Below, in pieces: positions 4,508 through 62,650 of a stretch of 64,000 nt of DNA (its first letter is position 1; each line of letters begins with the position of its first letter). The notes under the pieces are model-generated. The model did no database searches and was not told where the DNA came from. It saw nothing but the letters and a program-made list of their open reading frames with translations. The DNA comes from Hydrogenophilus sp. (GTDB taxonomy: Bacteria > Pseudomonadota > Gammaproteobacteria > Burkholderiales > Thiobacillaceae): assembly GCA_020725265.1 (NCBI GenBank), contig DYFK01000003.1, forward strand, positions 62,001-126,000, given 5' to 3'. The translations under genes were made by a program, and so were the position numbers.

Positions 4508-6592
4508 ATGGCAATCAAGAAGCCCGATTTCGACATCGGCAAAACCTTCGGCGGCCTCGGCCGTGTCATGGAACGCTGGTCCGAACTCGACCCCGAGCGC
4601 ATCCCCCTGCTCAATCGCGTGCCCGTGGAAAAGCGGCGGCCACGCCTGCTCGCCACCCTGCTGATCACCCTGATCCTGGCCGGCGTCCTGATCATCTGGT
4701 ACGTCATCCAGGTCGGCAACCGGGCCGAATACATCGAGATTTCGACCCGTCTGCAAATGCAGTCCCAGCGCTACACCAAGACCGCCCAGCAGGCGGTGCT
4801 CGGCAACCGTGACGCCTTCGTCCAGCTCGACGAAAGCCGCAAGGATTTCGCCGAAGGTCTGGACACCCTGATCAACGGCGGCGCCGGCGTTCCCGGCTCG
4901 CCACAGTACATCCAGTCCGATCTGGCGGAATTGAGGAAGCGCTGGGAAGTCTCGCGCGACGACATCAAGGCCCTGGTCGACGAACAGGCGGTCCTGATCG
5001 AACTCGGTCGGTCGCTCGCGGAAGTCAACCAACGCAACAGCGAGCTCCTGGACCTGACCGAACAGGTGATCGCCCTGTTGCCGGGCGAAACCCGCCGCCC
5101 CTGGGCGTTCGCGCACCAGCAGGCGTTGTGGACGCAACGCATGGCCAAGAACGCCAACGCCCTGATCTCCGCCGACCGTATCGATCCGGAAACCGCCTAC
5201 CAGCTCGGTCAGGACGCGCGCACCTTCCGCGAGGTGCTCGACGGCCTGCTCAACGGCAGCGCCAGCCTGGGCCTGCTCGGGGTGACCGACCCGGACGCGC
5301 GCGACAAACTGCTGGAAGTCGACGAAGTGTTCACCCGCTTCGAGCAGCAAATCAGCCTGATCCTGCGCAACATGCCGCAACTGGTCGAAGCCAAGCGCGC
5401 CGCCCGCCAGATCTTCGACGAATCCGAACGCCTGCTGGAAATGACCCAGAAGCTGACCCAGCGCTATCAGGACATGGGCACCGGCGTCTACCTGCTGTTC
5501 GCCATCGCCTTCGCGCTGGCCTCGCTGGCCGCGCTACTGTTGCTGAACGTGATCAACGTGCACGAGGCGCGCCGACGCGCCGACGAGGCTGCGCTGGAAA
5601 ACCAGCGCAACCAGGACGCCATCCTGCGTCTGCTCAACGAAATGGGCGATCTGGCGGAAGGCGACCTGACCGTGCAGGCCACCGTCACCGAGGACATCAC
5701 CGGCGCCATCGCCGACTCGGTCAACTACGCGATCGAGGAACTGCGCAACCTGGTCCAGGGCATCAACCGCGCCGCCGATCAGGTCACCGCCGCCACGTCC
5801 GAAGCCCGCGCCAACTCGGAACGGCTGCTGGCCGCCGCCGAAACCCAGGCCCAGCAGATCGGCGCGACCACCGAGGAAATCGGCCACATGTCGGCCTCCA
5901 TCGCCGAGGTCTCGCAGAACACCGCCGAATCCGCCCGCGTGGCCGATCAGGCCCTGGCCACCGCCCGCAAGGGCGGCGATTCGGTGCGCGGCGCCATCGC
6001 CGGCATGAACGCCATCCGCGATCAGATCCAGGAAACCTCCAAGCGGATCAAGCGGCTGGGCGAGTCGTCCCAGGAAATCGGCGGCATCGTCGACCTGATT
6101 TCCGACATTACCGAACAGACCAACGTGCTCGCGCTCAACGCCGCCATTCAAGCCGCCGCCGCCGGCGAGGCCGGCCGCGGTTTCACCGTCGTCGCCGAGG
6201 AAGTGCAACGCCTGGCCGAACGCTCGGCGCACGCCACGCGCCGGATCGGCAACATCGTCAAGACCATCCAGAGCGACACCCAGGATGCCGTCAACGCCAT
6301 GGAGCAATCGACCCAGGGCGTGGTCGAGGGCACGACCCGTTCCGACGCGGCCGGTGGCGCGCTGACCGAAATCGAATCGGTTTCGGAACAACTGGCGCGC
6401 CTGATCCAGAGCATCTCGGACGCCACCCAGGCCCAGGCCGCCACCGCCGAGCGCATCGCCGGCAACATGCGCCAGATTCTGGAAGTCACCGAACAGGCCG
6501 CCGACGGCGCCCGCGGCAGCGCCGCGTCGGTCGGCGAACTGGCGGTGCTGTCGGACGAACTGAAGGTATCGGTGTCCGGCTTCAAGCTGTAA
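4508..6592 (+). CDS. pilJ: Type IV pilus methyl-accepting chemotaxis protein PilJ
   Basis: The 694-residue inner-membrane receptor has a first membrane helix at about residues 50-72, a mostly helical periplasmic sensor with PilJ-type repeats to about 320, and a second helix at about 322-350. A HAMP segment follows, then a long cytoplasmic coiled coil. The hairpin tip is intact near residue 535 ([19 protein letters not shown]), the region that contacts PilI and PilL. It ends VSVSGFKL, with no pentapeptide tether for methylation enzymes, and no pilK (CheR-like) or chpB (CheB-like) gene is in this cluster. Expected role: sensing pilus or surface cues. Confidence 0.94.
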
Positions 6593-6634: not shown

Positions 6635-9600
6635 ATGAGCATGGACATGGACTTCGATCTGGGCCCCCTCACCTGGGTCAAGGGCGAGCTGGACAACGCA
6701 CTGGAAGCCGCGCGCGTCGCGCTGGCGGGCTGGAACGGCGAGGACATCACGCCGCTCAAGACCGCCGCCGCGCATCTGCACCAGGTTCGTGGCGCCCTGG
6801 AAATCGTCGACCTGCGTGGCGTCACCCAGGTCACCGGCGAAACCGAACGCCTGCTCGCGGAAATGGAAACGCGCGCGGAACTGCGCGATCGAGACTCCGC
6901 GGAAATCATCCTGCGCGCCATCGCCGCGCTGAAAACCTATCTGGACGGGCTGATGGCCGGCACCCCGCCGATGGAACTCAAGCTGGCCGGACATCTGCAC
7001 GCGCTGGTCACCCGCCGTGGTGGCGAGGCGCCGGCGCCGAGCGAGCTGTTCCACCCCGATACCGACATCCGCGTGCCACGCCCGGCGCCGGAACCCCAGC
7101 TCACCGAGGCCGTCCGCGCCGCCAGCGTTCACGCCGCCCGCCAGCGCTACCAGCTCGGCCTGCTGAAGGTCCTGCGGAACGACGACGCCGCCGCCGGCCT
7201 CGACCAGATGGCCCGGGCGGTCGGCGAAATCGAACGGATCGCTCCCGGCACCGCGCAATACACCTTCTGGTGGAGCGTCGGCGCCCTCATGGATGCCCTT
7301 GAGCGGCGCGCCCAGCCCGCCGATTTCTGGATCAAGCGCCTGTGCGGCCGCGTCGACCTGCAGATGCGCCGGCTCATGGAAGGCTCCCGCCAGCTCGCCG
7401 ACCGCCTGTTCCGCGACGTGCTCTACCACCTTGGCCGGGACGAGGCGGCGGATGGTCGCGCCGCCCAGGCACGCGAACTGTTCCGGCTGCGTAGCCATTT
7501 CCCGGACCGGGCCGACGACGCGCTCACCGCCGAACACCTCGCCCAGCTTGCCGCCCTCAGGGAAAGCCTGGCCACCGCCAAGGACCACTGGATGCGCTAC
7601 TGCGGTGGCGCCCGCGAAAGCCTGGAGGCGTTCAAGCATGGCGTCGCTGGCTTCGTCGAGGCCAGCAGCCGGCTGCCCAATCCGGCCATGCAGTCGCTGG
7701 CGCGCATGGTTCAGGCCGTCACCAAGCGTCTGTCCGGCGACGACGCCACCGCGCAGAACGAAGCCCTGCAACTGGAAATGGCGACCGCGCTGCTGCTGGC
7801 CCAGAACGCCGCCGAACACTACGAGAAGCTGGATGACCAGTTCGGCCGCCAGTGCGAAGCGCTGACCATGCGTCTGCAAGCCGCGATCGACCCCCATTTC
7901 GACACCAGCACGATTCCCGAGGTCGAACTGCTCGACGAAGTCTCGCGCGCCGCCCAGGAAAAACTGGTGGTCTCCCAGGTCGCCCAGGAAATCCAGGTCA
8001 ACCTCAACCAGATCGAGGAAATCCTCGACAAGTTCTTCCGCAACGCCCAGGAACGCGGCGGTCTGCCGATGGTGCCCAGCCTGATGAAGCAGATCCAGGG
8101 CGCGCTCAACATCCTCGAGCTCGACACCGCCGTCTCGCTGGTCGACGAAGCCCTGCGACGCATCCAGCATTTCGCCGAACCGGATGCCCAGATCGCGCCG
8201 GAGAATCTCAACTGGGTGGCCGAGGCCCTGTCGACCCTGGGTCTGTACATGGACAGCCTGCGCTACGGCCGCGACGACAAGCAATCGATGATCCGTCTGC
8301 TGGCCGAGCCGGAAGTCGACATGCCGCGCGAGACCTCGGTGGAGAGTGAAATCCACGCCGAAACCGAGCGCCTCAAGGAATCGGTCTCGCGCTGGGCCGC
8401 CGAAGGCGGCGACGCCGAGGGCCGGGAAGCGCTGCGCGGCGAACTCGGCAAGCTCGTCCGCGACGCCGACCTGATCGGCGACGCCGACCTGCGCGGCCAG
8501 GCCGATGCCGCGCTCAAGGCGCTCAGCGCGGCCGACGCGCCGGAAGCCGTGCGCGAGGCGGTGGTCAACCTCGGCGGCGCGCCCACCGCCGCGCCGGCGC
8601 CGAGCGCGGACAGCATGCGCCTGGCCGCCGCCACCGACGACACCATCGACCGGGAACTGCTCGACACCTACATCGAGGAAGCCAATGAAGTCCTTGGCGT
8701 CATCGCCAGCAAGGTCGCCCGCCTGCACGTCAGCCCCTACGACACCGACGCTTTCACCACCATCCGGCGCGGCTTCCACACCCTCAAGGGCAGCGGCCGC
8801 ATGGTCGGCCTGACCGATCTGGCCGAACTGGCCTGGGAAGTCGAACAGACGCTCAACCTCTGGCTGCGCGACGAACGCGCCCCGGACGCGGCCATGCTGC
8901 GTTTCCTGGAAGACACCGGTAACGCCTTCGAAGTCTGGGTGAACGAACTCGATGAACAGGGTCGTGCCCGCGTCGAGGCCGATCACCTGGCCCGCGCCGC
9001 GCGCGTGTTGCGCGGCGAACAGGTGGCACCGGTGGAGGCCCCGCCCCCAAAGCCTGAAGCCGACGACACGGCCGCCCCGGCCGCGGCCGTCGGCGACGCG
9101 GATGCGGGCACCGGGGCGCCGACGGAAACCGACGTGGCGATGGAACGGGATGGCGGCCAGGACGACGCCGAAGACCATCTCGTCGACATCGGCGGCCATA
9201 AACTGCCCGCGGAACTGTTCGACATCTTTTCCAACGAAGCCGGCAACCGGCTCGACGAACTCGCCGTCGCGGTTTCCGAAATGACTGGCGGCGACCGGCC
9301 GGACGGCTGGGAAGCCTTCGCCCGCGCCGCCCACACTTTGGCTGGCATCTCCCGGACCACCGGTTTCACGCCGCTGGCCGAGGCGGCGCATGCGCTCGAA
9401 CTCTGGGCTGGCGCCTGGCCGGACCGGCACGCGCCACTGGACGAGGACGCCGCGGCGGTACTCGATCGATGCCTGAATACCCTGGCCCGGGCGGTCGAGG
9501 GCATCCTGGCGCGCCGCTATCCCGCGCCGATGCCGGAAATCGACGCCGGCCTGGCGGAGCTCGCCGCCCCCCTCCCCGCCGGCTCGGACGACAAGGCCGC

Positions 9601-38102: not shown

Positions 38103-38846
38103 ATGAACAAACCCGATCTGCCTGAAAGCGCGGACGTCAGAGAGAATCCCGAAACGGAATCCGTGAACACCGGACGCCGCCGGCTCGGCAAGGCCGCCCT
38201 GGCCACGCCGGTCATCGCATCCCTGGCCGCGCGCCCGGCACTGGCCTGCTCGGTATCCGGCTTCATGTCCGGCAACGCCTCGCCCGGCCGCGAGGATCCG
38301 CGTTGCGACGGCTACGGCTGCACGCCGGGGTTCTGGAAAAACAATGTCAAGGCCTGGAAGTACACCCCGTACAGCCCCGGAACCTGTGGTCAATGGAAAA
38401 ACGGCGTTTGCAAACAGTGGACCATCGAGGGCACCAAGCTCGCCGCCATCCTGCCTCCCTCCTGCTCGACCCCGTTCGACGGCTACAAGAACTACTACCT
38501 GCTCGAACTCCTGAACCTCGGCATCAAGAGCGGTGGTGGCAGCACGCACGCCCAGATCGCGCACTACATCGCCGCCATCCTGAACGCGGCCGCTTCGCAG
38601 GCCTCCTACGGCAGCAGTGTCGCCGACATCCAGGCCGGCTTGTGCAAGGCGGCGGCGGACGGCAAGGTCAACTACTACACCACGACCCTGCTGGCCGGCC
38701 TCAACGAGCGCGGCTGCATGTTCAACGCCCACGGCAACTGCGAATCCGACTTCGTGCTCGACGACGCCAGCAAGACCTGCATCCCTGCCTGCCCGACCGG
38801 CCAGATCTGGAACAGCGTGACCATGCGCTGCGAGACCAAGCCATGA
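38103..38846 (+). CDS. Tat-type exported cysteine-rich protein with CTPGFWKN motif
   Basis: The 247-residue protein has a polar N-terminal region of about 23 residues before a twin-arginine-like signal (GRRRLGKAALATPVIASLAARPALA). The mature part has 12 cysteines, an even number suited to disulfides. It contains GYGCTPGFWKNN, a motif shared by many secreted bacterial proteins of unknown function, and a C-terminal knot-like segment CIPACPTGQIWNSVTMRC. GGAG is six bases before the chosen ATG; the ATG immediately before it would leave only three. It is followed at 54 bases by the PqqD-like, HprK-like and nucleotidyltransferase genes. It may be their substrate, which is an inference from position. 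Confidence 0.85.
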   Translation: MNKPDLPESADVRENPETESVNTGRRRLGKAALATPVIASLAARPALACSVSGFMSGNASPGREDPRCDGYGCTPGFWKNNVKAWKYTPYSPGTCGQWKNGVCKQWTIEGTKLAAILPPSCSTPFDGYKNYYLLELLNLGIKSGGGSTHAQIAHYIAAILNAAASQASYGSSVADIQAGLCKAAADGKVNYYTTTLLAGLNERGCMFNAHGNCESDFVLDDASKTCIPACPTGQIWNSVTMRCETKP

Positions 38847-38900
38847 CAATCTCCGCGCGGCTCCACCGGATCGCGCGCGGATAACGTCCGGAACGCGCGC

Positions 38901-39185
38901 GTGCGGTGGCGCCTGGCACCGGGGGTGGTCCGCCATGCCTGCCCGGACGAGGAAGAAATGGCCGTCTACGTCGGACTCGCCGGCACGGCGCATGTACTCG
39001 CCGGCCTCGGCTATCTGATCGTGGACGCTTGCGGACAAGATCCGCAATCCCTTGATGCCTTGACGATCCGCGCCGACGCCCTGTTCGAAATCGACGCCGG
39101 AACCGACCTGACCGCCGTCATGCGCGAAACCGTGAGTCAACTGATCGGGCTTGGTATCCTCGCGCCATGCCCGCCGACCGCCTGA
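38901..39185 (+). CDS. PqqD-like peptide chaperone of the HPr-rel-A system
   Basis: The 94-residue protein matches the PqqD-like winged-helix layout used to bind leader peptides: WRLAPGVVRHACPDEEEMAVY, then a helix with HVLAGLGYLIVDA, and a C-terminal TVSQLIGLGIL. The order PqqD-like, HprK-like, nucleotidyltransferase is the hallmark of what databases call the HPr-rel-A system. The start is a GTG with no clear Shine-Dalgarno. It overlaps the kinase gene by 19 bases. Confidence 0.8.
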   Translation: MRWRLAPGVVRHACPDEEEMAVYVGLAGTAHVLAGLGYLIVDACGQDPQSLDALTIRADALFEIDAGTDLTAVMRETVSQLIGLGILAPCPPTA

Positions 39186-40093
39186 ACAGCCTCGATCCCA
39201 ACCGGATCGCCCAACACTTGCGTGGCCCGGACGGGCTGGTATTCGACATCGGCCCGTTTCGCGTGCGCGCGCACTCCCGGTTGCCGGCCATTCGCGACCA
39301 TGTCGTGGAAATGTACGGCCAATACCCGTTGGCCGATCCCGATTACGCGGATCTGCGCTTCTCCGTGAATCCACCACGCGGGTTGCGCGCGCTCTGGCGC
39401 GGACAGGTCAATTTCCGTTTCGACGAAGAAACCCCGTTCAAACCGCTCCCCATCGCCCAGGCCCGTCCGTTCTTCGAATGGGGGCTGAACTGGTGCATCG
39501 CCACCACCGCCCATCAATACCTGCTGATTCACGCCGCCGTGGTCGCGCGCGGCCGCTTCTGCGCGCTGATTCCGGGACGTCCGGGCGCCGGGAAAAGCAC
39601 CCTTTGCGCGGCCCTGGTGGCGAGTGGCTGGCGGCTGCTGTCCGACGAAATGGCGTTGATCGAGTTGAATACCCGACAGGTCTGGCCGGTTCCCCGACCA
39701 ATCAGTCTCAAGAACGCATCCATCGACATCCTGCGCGGGTTCGCCAAGGACGTCTTCCTGGGGCCGGTCGTGACCGACACCCACAAGGGCACGGTGGCGC
39801 ACATGCGCGCGCCCGCCGACAGCATCGCCGCCGCCGGCATCCCGGCCGAGGCGGCCTGGGTGATCTATCCCGGCTACCGGGCCGGCGCGGCGCTCGCGAC
39901 CACGCCGGTCAGCCCCTGCCGCTCCACCCTGCGGCTGGCCGACGACAGTTTCAACCTGCCCCTGCTCGGCGCGCGCGGCTTCTCGGTCCTGGCCGAGGTC
40001 GCCCAGGGCTGCCGCTCCTTCGAACTGGTCTACAGCCGGCTGGAAGACGCCCTCGACTGGTTCGACCGGCTCGCCGGCGAGGCCATGGCGTGA
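39167..40093 (+). CDS. HprK-related kinase A
   Basis: The 308-residue protein resembles the C-terminal kinase domain of HPr kinase/phosphorylase. It has a conserved histidine in LLIHAAVVARG, the P-loop GRPGAGKST at about residues 137-145, and an acidic LLSDEM segment. The N-terminal 110 residues (FDIGPFRVRAHSRLP, DYADLRFSVNPP) are specific to the HprK-related group. HprK-like enzymes are known to phosphorylate lasso peptides (for example paeninodin), so a peptide or protein serine target is plausible. It is coupled to both neighbours by overlaps (19 and 4 bases). Confidence 0.87.
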   Translation: MPADRLNSLDPNRIAQHLRGPDGLVFDIGPFRVRAHSRLPAIRDHVVEMYGQYPLADPDYADLRFSVNPPRGLRALWRGQVNFRFDEETPFKPLPIAQARPFFEWGLNWCIATTAHQYLLIHAAVVARGRFCALIPGRPGAGKSTLCAALVASGWRLLSDEMALIELNTRQVWPVPRPISLKNASIDILRGFAKDVFLGPVVTDTHKGTVAHMRAPADSIAAAGIPAEAAWVIYPGYRAGAALATTPVSPCRSTLRLADDSFNLPLLGARGFSVLAEVAQGCRSFELVYSRLEDALDWFDRLAGEAMA

Positions 40094-41199
40094 AGCCACG
40101 CGCGCAACCGCTGATCGAGGCGCTCGCCCATCCGGCCAGCCTGGATCGATTCAGCCTCGCGGACTGGGACCGGGTGATCCGCCAGGCCCGCGCCGCCGGC
40201 CTGCTCGCCACCCTCCACCATGCCGCCGTCGATGCCGGCCAAACCGAGCGCTTGCCGGCCCGCGTGCGCGCGCAACTGACGGCCGCCGCCGAAGTCGCCG
40301 CGCGTCATCGCGATGTCATGCACTGGGAGGCGGAGGCCATCGGCCAGACCCTGGAGCGCATCGGCGTGCCGGTGATGCTGCTCAAGGGCGCGGCCTACGT
40401 GATGGCCGACCTGGAAGCCGCGCGCGGCCGGTTGTTCGGCGATATCGACATCCTGGTGCCGCGCGGCGCGCTCGCCGAAGTCGAGGACGCGCTGGGTCGG
40501 GACGGCTGGGTTCAGGATTCCCGCGATGCCTACGACGACCGCTATTACCGGCGCTGGATGCACGAAATCCCGGCGCGCCGGCACGCGCAGCGCGGCACCG
40601 TGCTCGACGTGCATCACAACATCCTGCCGCTGACCGCGCGCAACCAGCCTGCCGCGCGCGATCTCTGGGATGCCGCGCGACGTCTGGACGCCCCCGGCGA
40701 ACTCTATGTACCCTGCGCGGAAGACCTGTTGCTGCACTCCGCCGCGCATCTGTTCCTGAACGGCGAGTTCGATCGCGGTCTGCGCGATCTCAACGATTTC
40801 CGGCGGCTGGCGCGCCAGTTCGCCGGCGAACCGGACTTCATGGCGCGCCTCGCCACGCGCGCCGAGCGGCTCGATCTGGTCCGGCCGTTGACCTACGCGA
40901 CCCGCTACGCCAACCGTCTGCTCGCCGCTGGCCTGGAGGAAACCGCGACCATGTCGATGCCGGTCATGGATGCGCTGTTCACGCGCGGCCTGCGCCCCGA
41001 CCACGCCAGCGCGCGCGATGCCCTGACGCCGCTGGCGCTGTTCGCCCTGTACGTACGCGGCCACTACCTGCGCATGCCCTTCCACCTGCTGTTGCCGCAC
41101 CTGCTTTACAAGGCCACGCTGGCCAAGTTTCACGACACGGAAATACGCGACGAGAACGCCGAGAAGCTCGCGCGCTTCCGCGCCTTCCTGGGCAAATGA
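40090..41199 (+). CDS. Nucleotidyltransferase of the HPr-rel-A system (NTP_transf_5 family)
   Basis: The 369-residue protein has the core nucleotidyltransferase signature: MLLKGAAYV, then GRLFGDIDILVPR with the metal-binding DxD, and a later acidic residue in GTVLDVHHNIL. The rest is helical. It starts at a GTG overlapping the kinase stop (GTGA). Its likely job is to transfer a nucleotide or related group onto the product of the kinase or a partner protein. Substrate unknown. Confidence 0.87.
   Translation: MKPRAQPLIEALAHPASLDRFSLADWDRVIRQARAAGLLATLHHAAVDAGQTERLPARVRAQLTAAAEVAARHRDVMHWEAEAIGQTLERIGVPVMLLKGAAYVMADLEAARGRLFGDIDILVPRGALAEVEDALGRDGWVQDSRDAYDDRYYRRWMHEIPARRHAQRGTVLDVHHNILPLTARNQPAARDLWDAARRLDAPGELYVPCAEDLLLHSAAHLFLNGEFDRGLRDLNDFRRLARQFAGEPDFMARLATRAERLDLVRPLTYATRYANRLLAAGLEETATMSMPVMDALFTRGLRPDHASARDALTPLALFALYVRGHYLRMPFHLLLPHLLYKATLAKFHDTEIRDENAEKLARFRAFLGK

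Positions 41200-56787: not shown

Positions 56788-62650
<5,863 letters not shown>

Follow-up and report, generated by a model that had tools for sequence, protein, structure and literature searches.

In this work, we describe a four-gene cassette located in a window of 64,000 nucleotides (the whole stretch of DNA analysed: positions 62,001 to 126,000 of contig DYFK01000003.1, assembly GCA_020725265.1, from Hydrogenophilus sp.), which encodes an exported, cysteine-rich protein, hereafter E, a PqqD-like protein, an HprK-related kinase A and a nucleotidyltransferase (NTase). Similar gene sets are found at considerably more than 100 loci, and the grouping is therefore more than a chance one. Throughout these loci E is an almost constant companion of the kinase, and within E a twin-arginine leader and a few serines are the best conserved features. 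From these sequence patterns, and by analogy with phosphorylated lasso peptides, we consider it rather probable that the cassette performs leader-guided tailoring, in which leader recognition by the PqqD-like protein would be followed by serine phosphorylation, by a second transfer carried out by the NTase, and finally by export through the twin-arginine translocation (Tat) route.

The cassette spans window positions 38103-41199, all genes and features reported below lying on the forward (+) strand. According to the open reading frame calls, E (38103-38846; 247 aa, 12 Cys) is separated by 54 nt from the gene of the PqqD-like protein (38901-39185), which overlaps the kinase gene (39167-40093) by 19 nt; the latter overlaps the NTase gene (40090-41199) by 4 nt. 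The PqqD-like and NTase genes have GTG starts. A first-pass annotation of the same DNA had placed these four functions here, correctly, and had spoken of three overlapping genes, which is true of the trio downstream of E.

The exported partner of the kinase

Kinase loci were collected from a sample of 300 genomes of the same order as the window, from genomes outside this order and from named loci. The resulting set of 177 loci includes all 50 genomes of the order sample scoring over the cut-off, 46 of the 55 kinase genomes outside the order (G328, G351, G359, G394, G420, G436, G459, G466 and G482 were left out) and the best 80 of 184 named loci. Merging of eight loci, whose kinase was identical over the last 240 residues, reduced the set to 169 distinct kinases.

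Apart from the window, the 30 loci examined first were those scoring best among the 300 order genomes; a twin-arginine E lies directly upstream of the PqqD-like gene in 26 of them and downstream of the NTase in the remaining four (L017, L025, L031 and L032). A profile built on 26 E proteins, including that of the window, was then run against the best 80 of the 184 loci found by the kinase alone, and matched 78 of them with an expectation value (E-value) up to 0.001; six of the 80 loci repeat ones that had supplied rows of the profile, the independent figure being 72 out of 74. The two misses are a locus whose contig starts 356 bases before the kinase (L039) and one featuring a different core (L108). 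A profile limited to the leader, iterated five times, detected E in 166 of the 177 loci, upstream in 158 and downstream in 8, and three more were recognized by other evidence: L028, L031, where E is cut by the stretch but complete in L217, and L094, where it is found on the opposite strand. After merging, an E with a twin-arginine leader stands beside the kinase at 161 of the 169 distinct loci, so that a survey for a conserved exported protein, suggested in the first-pass annotation, does yield a candidate substrate.

The reverse search gave a consistent picture. E proteins with a body related to that of the window are here referred to as class A. The class A profile produced 39 matches in the 300 order genomes, 35 of which lie less than 3 kb from a kinase. 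The other four are TPGYW (TPGxW) domains contained within frames of 1046-2888 aa, two of them in genomes without kinase, and two more such domains were found in the phylum sample, in genomes not listed with the kinase (G617, in a frame of 760 aa, and G566, in one of 299 aa). In all six cassette-distant domains (L212-L215, L230 and L234) the match begins only after both leader and serine tail, and the serine motif is absent from the 60 residues preceding the domain. The leader and the serine tail therefore look like the part which comes with the cassette, while the class A body would be an exported domain of wider use. Two other distant matches of the phylum sample are E proteins with another core: L237, next to part of a kinase gene where the contig ends, and L233, followed by a PqqD-like frame. 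In the latter (L233:1300-2200) E is of the CWSSF type, and the kinase of the genome lies on a different contig.

Leader and serine tail of class A proteins

Residues 24-48 of the window E read GRRRLGKAALATPVIASLAARPALA. Inspection by eye recognizes Tat-type features, namely R25 R26 and a hydrophobic stretch ending in ARPALA, which offers an AxA-type site, and the putative leader runs from R25 to the residue before C49 (residues 25-48; 38175-38246). Just after this signal-like stretch lies the serine tail, C49-x-x-S52-x-x-x-S56 (38247-38270), which we propose as the modified region, and further on a globular body of the TPGFW...LN type (residues 68-205; 38304-38717).

Class A proteins are rather divergent, the window E sharing only 19-37% identity with 25 relatives found beside other kinases. 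Conservation is concentrated in a few positions. In the alignment of 104 class A proteins including the window (three of the 107 were left out, as they do not end in a stop), the top columns are two arginines, conserved in 104/104 each, two serines, in 103/104 each, and a cysteine, in 100/104, corresponding to R25, R26, S52, S56 and C49 in window numbering; all rank above the Trp, Asn and Leu columns. Only R25, R26, S52 and S56 are invariant in an alignment of 69 sequences with a mean column identity of 13%, and R25 R26 are invariant also in one of 26 sequences. The mean majority-residue fraction is 0.58 in the leader and 0.65 in residues 49-57, as compared to 0.29 for the body and 0.17 for the residues preceding the leader. 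All 158 distinct E proteins retrieved by the leader profile have the arginine pair, a figure which is partly due to the construction of the search, and the class A motif, C-x(2-4)-S-x3-S, occurs in 91 of 107 proteins against a mean of 4.2 in shuffled sequences (maximum 12, 500 rounds).

Signal peptides are normally not conserved in sequence, and the conservation of this leader thus suggests its recognition by something besides the export machinery. In the AlphaFold model of E the predicted local distance difference test score (pLDDT) falls in the 50s around S52 and S56, and block means range between 69 and 94 from residue 71 on; the serine tail may accordingly be read, in the model, as flexible, and the conserved serines appear as the obvious candidate acceptors.

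Database searches did not relate E to known families. The window E matched no NCBIfam model at an E-value up to 1 and produced a single sub-threshold Pfam line (CBM_14, E-value 0.1); the 26 class A members scanned have no NCBIfam or Pfam family in common and only single weak matches, and comparison of the E model with Protein Data Bank (PDB) folds gave no match at an E-value up to 0.001. The TAT_signal_seq model (TIGR01409) did not match the window E either, and gave one sub-threshold match among 10 other E proteins.

Other ways of looking at E were discarded. The cysteine-rich protein was rejected as a stand-alone feature, leader and serines being what is conserved. A PEP-CTERM substrate was also rejected: the window E ends in SVTMRCETKP, no hydrophobic helix precedes this end, and no PEP-CTERM model matched. 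Similarly, no second leader-bearing substrate was accepted in the same genome, where the leader profile finds the window E at an E-value of 8e-9 (its leader being among the profile rows) and eight others between 0.04 and 5.9, the strongest of which has no leader on reading and looks like a chance match. The cysteine-rich C-terminal extension of the window E (residues 206-247; 38718-38846) is poorly conserved in class A (0.10) and bears a weak likeness to CBM_14.

Exported proteins with other bodies

The size of E across the loci is usually of roughly 130-300 aa. Besides class A, 51 distinct E proteins with other bodies were found in other families of the order, of the class and of the phylum. 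Once the motif and the tail are removed, BLAST (threshold 1e-3) sorts their cores into 16 groups that show no similarity to one another, at least two members being present in 7 of these, although remote homology may exist between the groups. One core (L165) joined class A in this grouping, probably spuriously. None of the ten other-core proteins scanned matched Pfam, and two gave sub-threshold matches to Tat-type NCBIfam models.

The leader search that selected these 51 proteins made no use of their C-terminus. A motif of the form [CAS][WFYLI]xS[FLVI] was found within the last 26 residues in 47 of them, as compared to a mean of 0.78 in shuffled sequences (maximum 5), and its strict form, C[WFY]xS[FLVI], in 38 (shuffled mean 0.05, maximum 2); SCWTSF, TCFASL, AAYTSI, SAWNSV and SCIVSI are examples. 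The C-terminal motif is thus not a matter of composition, which is what the shuffles test, rather than a pattern predicted beforehand. The two motifs exclude each other, the strict C-terminal one being found in 0 of 104 class A proteins and the class A one in 0 of the 51 others. The L165 protein (G067:C31:36000-45000) has the leader, followed by a low-complexity body, first Gly/Asn- and then Ser-rich, and no motif.

Kinase, nucleotidyltransferase and PqqD-like protein

The window kinase is recognized by TIGR04352 with 344.9 bits, well over the cut-off of 200. Its P-loop, GRPGAGKS (residues 137-144; 39575-39598), had been described as intact in the first-pass annotation, as indeed it is. Among the 169 kinases, H122 (39530-39532), G142, K143, T145, D160 and E161 (39644-39649), K182, T205, K207 and G208 are conserved at 1.00 (rounded), G140 at 0.99 and S144 at 0.97. 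The HPr kinase structures 1jb1 and 2qmh match the kinase profile over the P-loop region (E-value 6e-4), and in this alignment the histidine falls on the HPr kinase histidine and the D-E pair on its D-D pair.

The NTase scores 196.9 bits with PF14907 (cut-off 31.2; E-value 5.6e-58). In an alignment of 154 rows, in which the window appears twice, K99, G100, R114, D118, D120, D173, H175 and H216 are conserved at 1.00 (rounded). The DxD motif already pointed out in the window is D118-x-D120 (40441-40449), whose aspartates we take, from knowledge of the family, to be the metal-binding pair; these and the third conserved aspartate, D173 (40606-40608), are also invariant in a set of 56 sequences. Catalytic positions of kinase and transferase are thus almost invariant, another point raised for checking in the first-pass annotation. 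The AlphaFold model of the NTase has a mean pLDDT of 94. Searched against the PDB with Foldseek, it ranks first the NTase-like 5uvd (E-value 0.0023, target template-modelling (TM) score 0.49), and next ANT(2'')-Ia and, further down, LnuA, with probabilities of 0.99-1.00, E-values of 0.008-0.086, target TM scores of 0.62-0.66 and 12-18% identity. No match of this structure search reaches an E-value of 0.001, and comparison of the NTase sequence with the PDB gave chance-level matches only.

The second gene is called PqqD-like from a match to TIGR04353 below the cut-off, a putative assignment with which its position and its relatives agree. Relatives of the PqqD-like protein were detected in 165 of the 177 loci, and relatives of the transferase in 163.

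Genome distribution and the XrtA/PEP-CTERM link

Within its order the cassette tracks genomes endowed with the XrtA/PEP-CTERM exopolysaccharide system. The XrtA/PEP-CTERM histidine kinase PrsK was found in 47 of the 50 kinase-positive genomes, G005, G115 and G137 being the exceptions, and in 28 of the 250 others (Fisher p 2e-31, uncorrected for relatedness). In the genome of the window PrsK lies on another contig, away from the cassette (C29:3990-6014).

The same tendency is seen among recurrent neighbours, which were clustered for the 108 distinct loci with stretches of 6 kb or longer: PrsK is found in 31 loci, the XrtA chain length determinant in 22, PrsR in 19 and PrsT in 18. These are upper figures, since they come from single-linkage clusters annotated through a single representative apiece, and the same applies to the commonest neighbour, a cluster of trypsin/HtrA-like secreted proteases present in 33 of the 108 loci. 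Such a protease gene, for instance that at L056:5421-6212, has a signal-like start and lies about 2.5 kb before the kinase; its product might act extracellularly on E.

Outside the order an exosortase match was obtained in 26 of 55 kinase-positive genomes, as opposed to 8 of 80 genomes without kinase. The positive ones include 7 of 7 genomes of family f53 and 12 of 12 of f85 and f118, while no match was found in the 8 genomes of f83 and in the 11 of f87. An obligate exosortase link was therefore rejected, 29 of the 55 genomes lacking a match: since two whole families feature the kinase but no exosortase match, the link cannot be to exosortase itself, and may rather be to polysaccharide production in general.

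Comparison with known systems

The cassette resembles the HPr-rel-A system, named in NCBIfam (TIGR04352 HprK_rel_A, TIGR04353 PqqD_rel_X), in its kinase over the cut-off, in its sub-threshold PqqD-like neighbour and in its PF14907 NTase, the latter being a part of the HPr-rel-A set. For the window this label rests on the kinase, and NCBIfam scans match no model for its exported partner. The set had been presented as known only as a predicted system. This agrees with our failure to find, among 5.39 million open papers (subscription journals being outside this scope), any paper mentioning the system by its names, or, in a broader search of the same papers, any title or beginning of an abstract describing it.

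The closest functional precedent comes from lasso peptides. HprK homologues are reported to phosphorylate the C-terminal serine of such peptides (PMC9266682, PMC8498205, PMC7533575). In the case of pseudomycoidin, this is the role of PsmK, and PsmN is needed for the addition of one or two hexoses on the phosphorylated residue (PMC9266682, PMC8498205); PsmN is annotated as a nucleotidyltransferase, and whether it transfers the hexose itself was left open there (PMC9266682, PMC8498205, PMC7533575). The likeness to phosphorylated lasso peptides (paeninodin, with PadeK, and pseudomycoidin, with PsmK and PsmN) thus lies in an HprK homologue acting on serine and an annotated NTase acting on phosphoserine. 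In contrast to lasso clusters, no leader protease or cyclase is seen in the window set, and the substrate would be an exported protein with a twin-arginine leader. No lasso cyclase (asparagine synthetase-like) or B2 protease was found among the eight neighbours scanned (33.4-45.1 kb), a search for them that did not extend to the remainder of the genome, and the protease which frequently neighbours other loci, being trypsin/HtrA-like, is not of the B2 type. The near-C-terminal motif of the other E cores resembles the lasso precedent, while the class A serines lie at the other end. A further likeness is presumably offered by the PqqD-like B1 protein, the leader-binding component of lasso systems.

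Similarity to other systems is more limited. HPr kinase/phosphorylase (HprK), the enzyme that phosphorylates HPr on Ser46, shows a weak match in the region of the P-loop and of the His/Asp pair (1jb1, E-value 5.6e-4); however, the window kinase obtains only 16.6 bits with TIGR00679, far below the cut-off of 240, and its cassette contains no HPr. ANT(2'')-Ia and LnuA share with the NTase the fold and the DxD pair, but with the high E-values and low identities reported above. The XrtA/PEP-CTERM system co-occurs with the cassette in order genomes, often near it, but the window E is devoid of a PEP-CTERM tail.

Proposed pathway and its alternatives

The four genes could form a stand-alone unit for modification in the cytoplasm and export. 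By analogy, the PqqD-like protein would recognize the conserved leader of E; the kinase would then phosphorylate a fixed serine, which conservation indicates as S52 and/or S56 in the window and as the serine of the C-W-x-S-F type motif near the C-terminus in other lineages. Less certainly, the NTase, acting on the phosphate or close to it, would add a nucleotide or, as reported for PsmN, a hexose. Finally, E would leave the cell by the Tat route and act outside, co-occurrence suggesting that it probably does so with the exopolysaccharide matrix. The Tat route accepts proteins folded and modified inside the cell. Modification, leader binding and export of E are all predictions. The first-pass annotation had proposed a phosphorylation/nucleotidylation pathway acting on a leader-bound protein: the conserved candidate substrate, leader, serines and catalytic residues strengthen this proposal, while the chemistry is still what we infer, as is the ability of the PqqD-like protein to bind the leader. 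The association with XrtA/PEP-CTERM genomes in the order and the serine motif shared by dissimilar E bodies are new with respect to it.

A broader version of the proposed pathway is tentative, and we would sooner doubt it than rely on it. The logic of ribosomally synthesised and post-translationally modified peptides (RiPPs) might be applied here to whole exported proteins, with one leader recruiting the trio to dissimilar bodies, whose fixed serine would receive a phosphodiester-linked nucleotide or sugar ahead of Tat export; this serine, once modified, could anchor exopolysaccharide in the PEP-CTERM biofilm matrix, a new protein phosphoglycosylation widespread in proteobacteria.

Several observations weigh against leader-guided tailoring of E, or against the breadth of its support. 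The loci are related to one another, and the counts do not represent independent events; the iterations of the leader search began with class A seeds, and some of its picks may be wrong, and at eight distinct loci (L039, L117, L127, L129, L130, L136, L153 and L154) no E was found in the stretch examined. As to the serines, 16 of the 107 class A proteins miss the strict motif, because of another spacing or a missing cysteine, four of the 51 others (L105, L157, L158 and L165) lack the C-terminal one, and both patterns were written after the sequences had been seen, which the shuffles do not correct for. The motifs lie at opposite ends of the mature chain in class A and in the other proteins, so that one recognition rule fails to cover both, and the pathway does not explain the placement of the class A serines; conserved serines could, moreover, serve folding, disulphide chemistry or sorting. 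The trio itself is not always complete. The window PqqD-like protein obtains 30.8 bits with TIGR04353, below the cut-off of 35 (E-value 4.3e-07, 70 residues), and 12 of the 177 loci, 8 of them in stretches of at least 7.6 kb, have no PqqD-like match. Six of these 12, the f53 loci L155-L160, have between E and the kinase nothing but a frame of 62-92 aa that is not recognised, the third component being there either very divergent or absent, and L091 has neither the protein nor such a frame. No NTase match was found in 14 of the 177 loci, 13 of them in stretches shorter than 4 kb, the stretch of L092 being long.

The trio might also modify E by another chemistry, with a kinase domain that has a regulatory role or works as a phosphorylase, or with an NTase acting alone, for instance by placing adenosine monophosphate (AMP) on serine. 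HPr kinases do act also as phosphorylases, and ANT(2'')-Ia and LnuA, close to the NTase in fold, put a nucleotide on a hydroxyl, which makes direct nucleotidylation of serine chemically possible. We regard this as unlikely, in view of the P-loop and the other catalytic residues of the kinase, kept in at least 97% of 169 sequences, and of the lasso precedent, where the NTase product is reported to depend on that of the kinase. Somewhat less likely again is that E is a partner or a final carrier rather than a substrate, the trio modifying, for example, a sugar or lipid intermediate of exopolysaccharide: this would agree with the strong XrtA/PEP-CTERM tie in the order (47/50 versus 28/250) and with the recurrence of XrtA/exopolysaccharide protein clusters as neighbours, but leaves the conserved leader, the serines of dissimilar E bodies and the PqqD-like protein unexplained.

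The ordinary operon, in which serines and C-x-x-S motif serve folding, disulphides or signal-peptidase recognition and the enzymes are unrelated housekeeping ones, seems to us very improbable. The class A motif does adjoin the likely cleavage site and contains a cysteine, in a protein rich in cysteines; in other cores, however, the motif is near the C-terminus, far from the signal, the six related domains found away from the cassette are devoid of it, and the pairing of E and kinase holds across many families within the order, the class and the phylum.

While HPr-rel-A is named in NCBIfam, no described substrate was found in the open literature, and the comparison supplies a near-universal candidate, a leader to be recognized and residues to be modified, in several sequence contexts. 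If leader-guided tailoring is true, a kinase family of carbon control and lasso peptides would be tied to the modification of cell-surface proteins in polysaccharide producers, and the leader may be a means of bringing a phosphate-based modification to proteins unlike one another.

Genomic context and history of the window cassette

Eight genes were scanned around the window cassette, between 33.4 and 45.1 kb: CMD (carboxymuconolactone decarboxylase-like), CobW, TerC, PsiE and Usp (universal stress protein) on one side, FBPase, TonB-like and RNB on the other. They appear to be ordinary proteins, with no evident relation to the cassette, and none of them is PrsK, the chain length determinant, PrsR, PrsT or the trypsin/HtrA-like protease. 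A scan for promoters and terminators gave no signal exceeding shuffled controls.

In the kinase tree, the window sequence and that of L034, from a gammaproteobacterial metagenome-assembled genome, are sisters (support 0.95, 50% identity). A separate clade (support 1.0), in which E is downstream of the NTase, unites the kinases of four genus relatives, one family relative and two named loci; L178, which has another core and also a downstream E, was outside this tree test. The gene order of the window was therefore rejected as ancestral in the genus, the four genus relatives having both a downstream E and kinases of another clade, and the window cassette was probably acquired from elsewhere, as a xenologous one.

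Unusual arrangements were noticed in two other loci. A tandem pair of class A E genes lies downstream of a single kinase at L102:5689-7107. At L077:4862-8882 one E gene is enclosed between two genes for an HprK-related kinase A (4862-5764 and 7788-8882), which gives the impression of two cassettes brought together.

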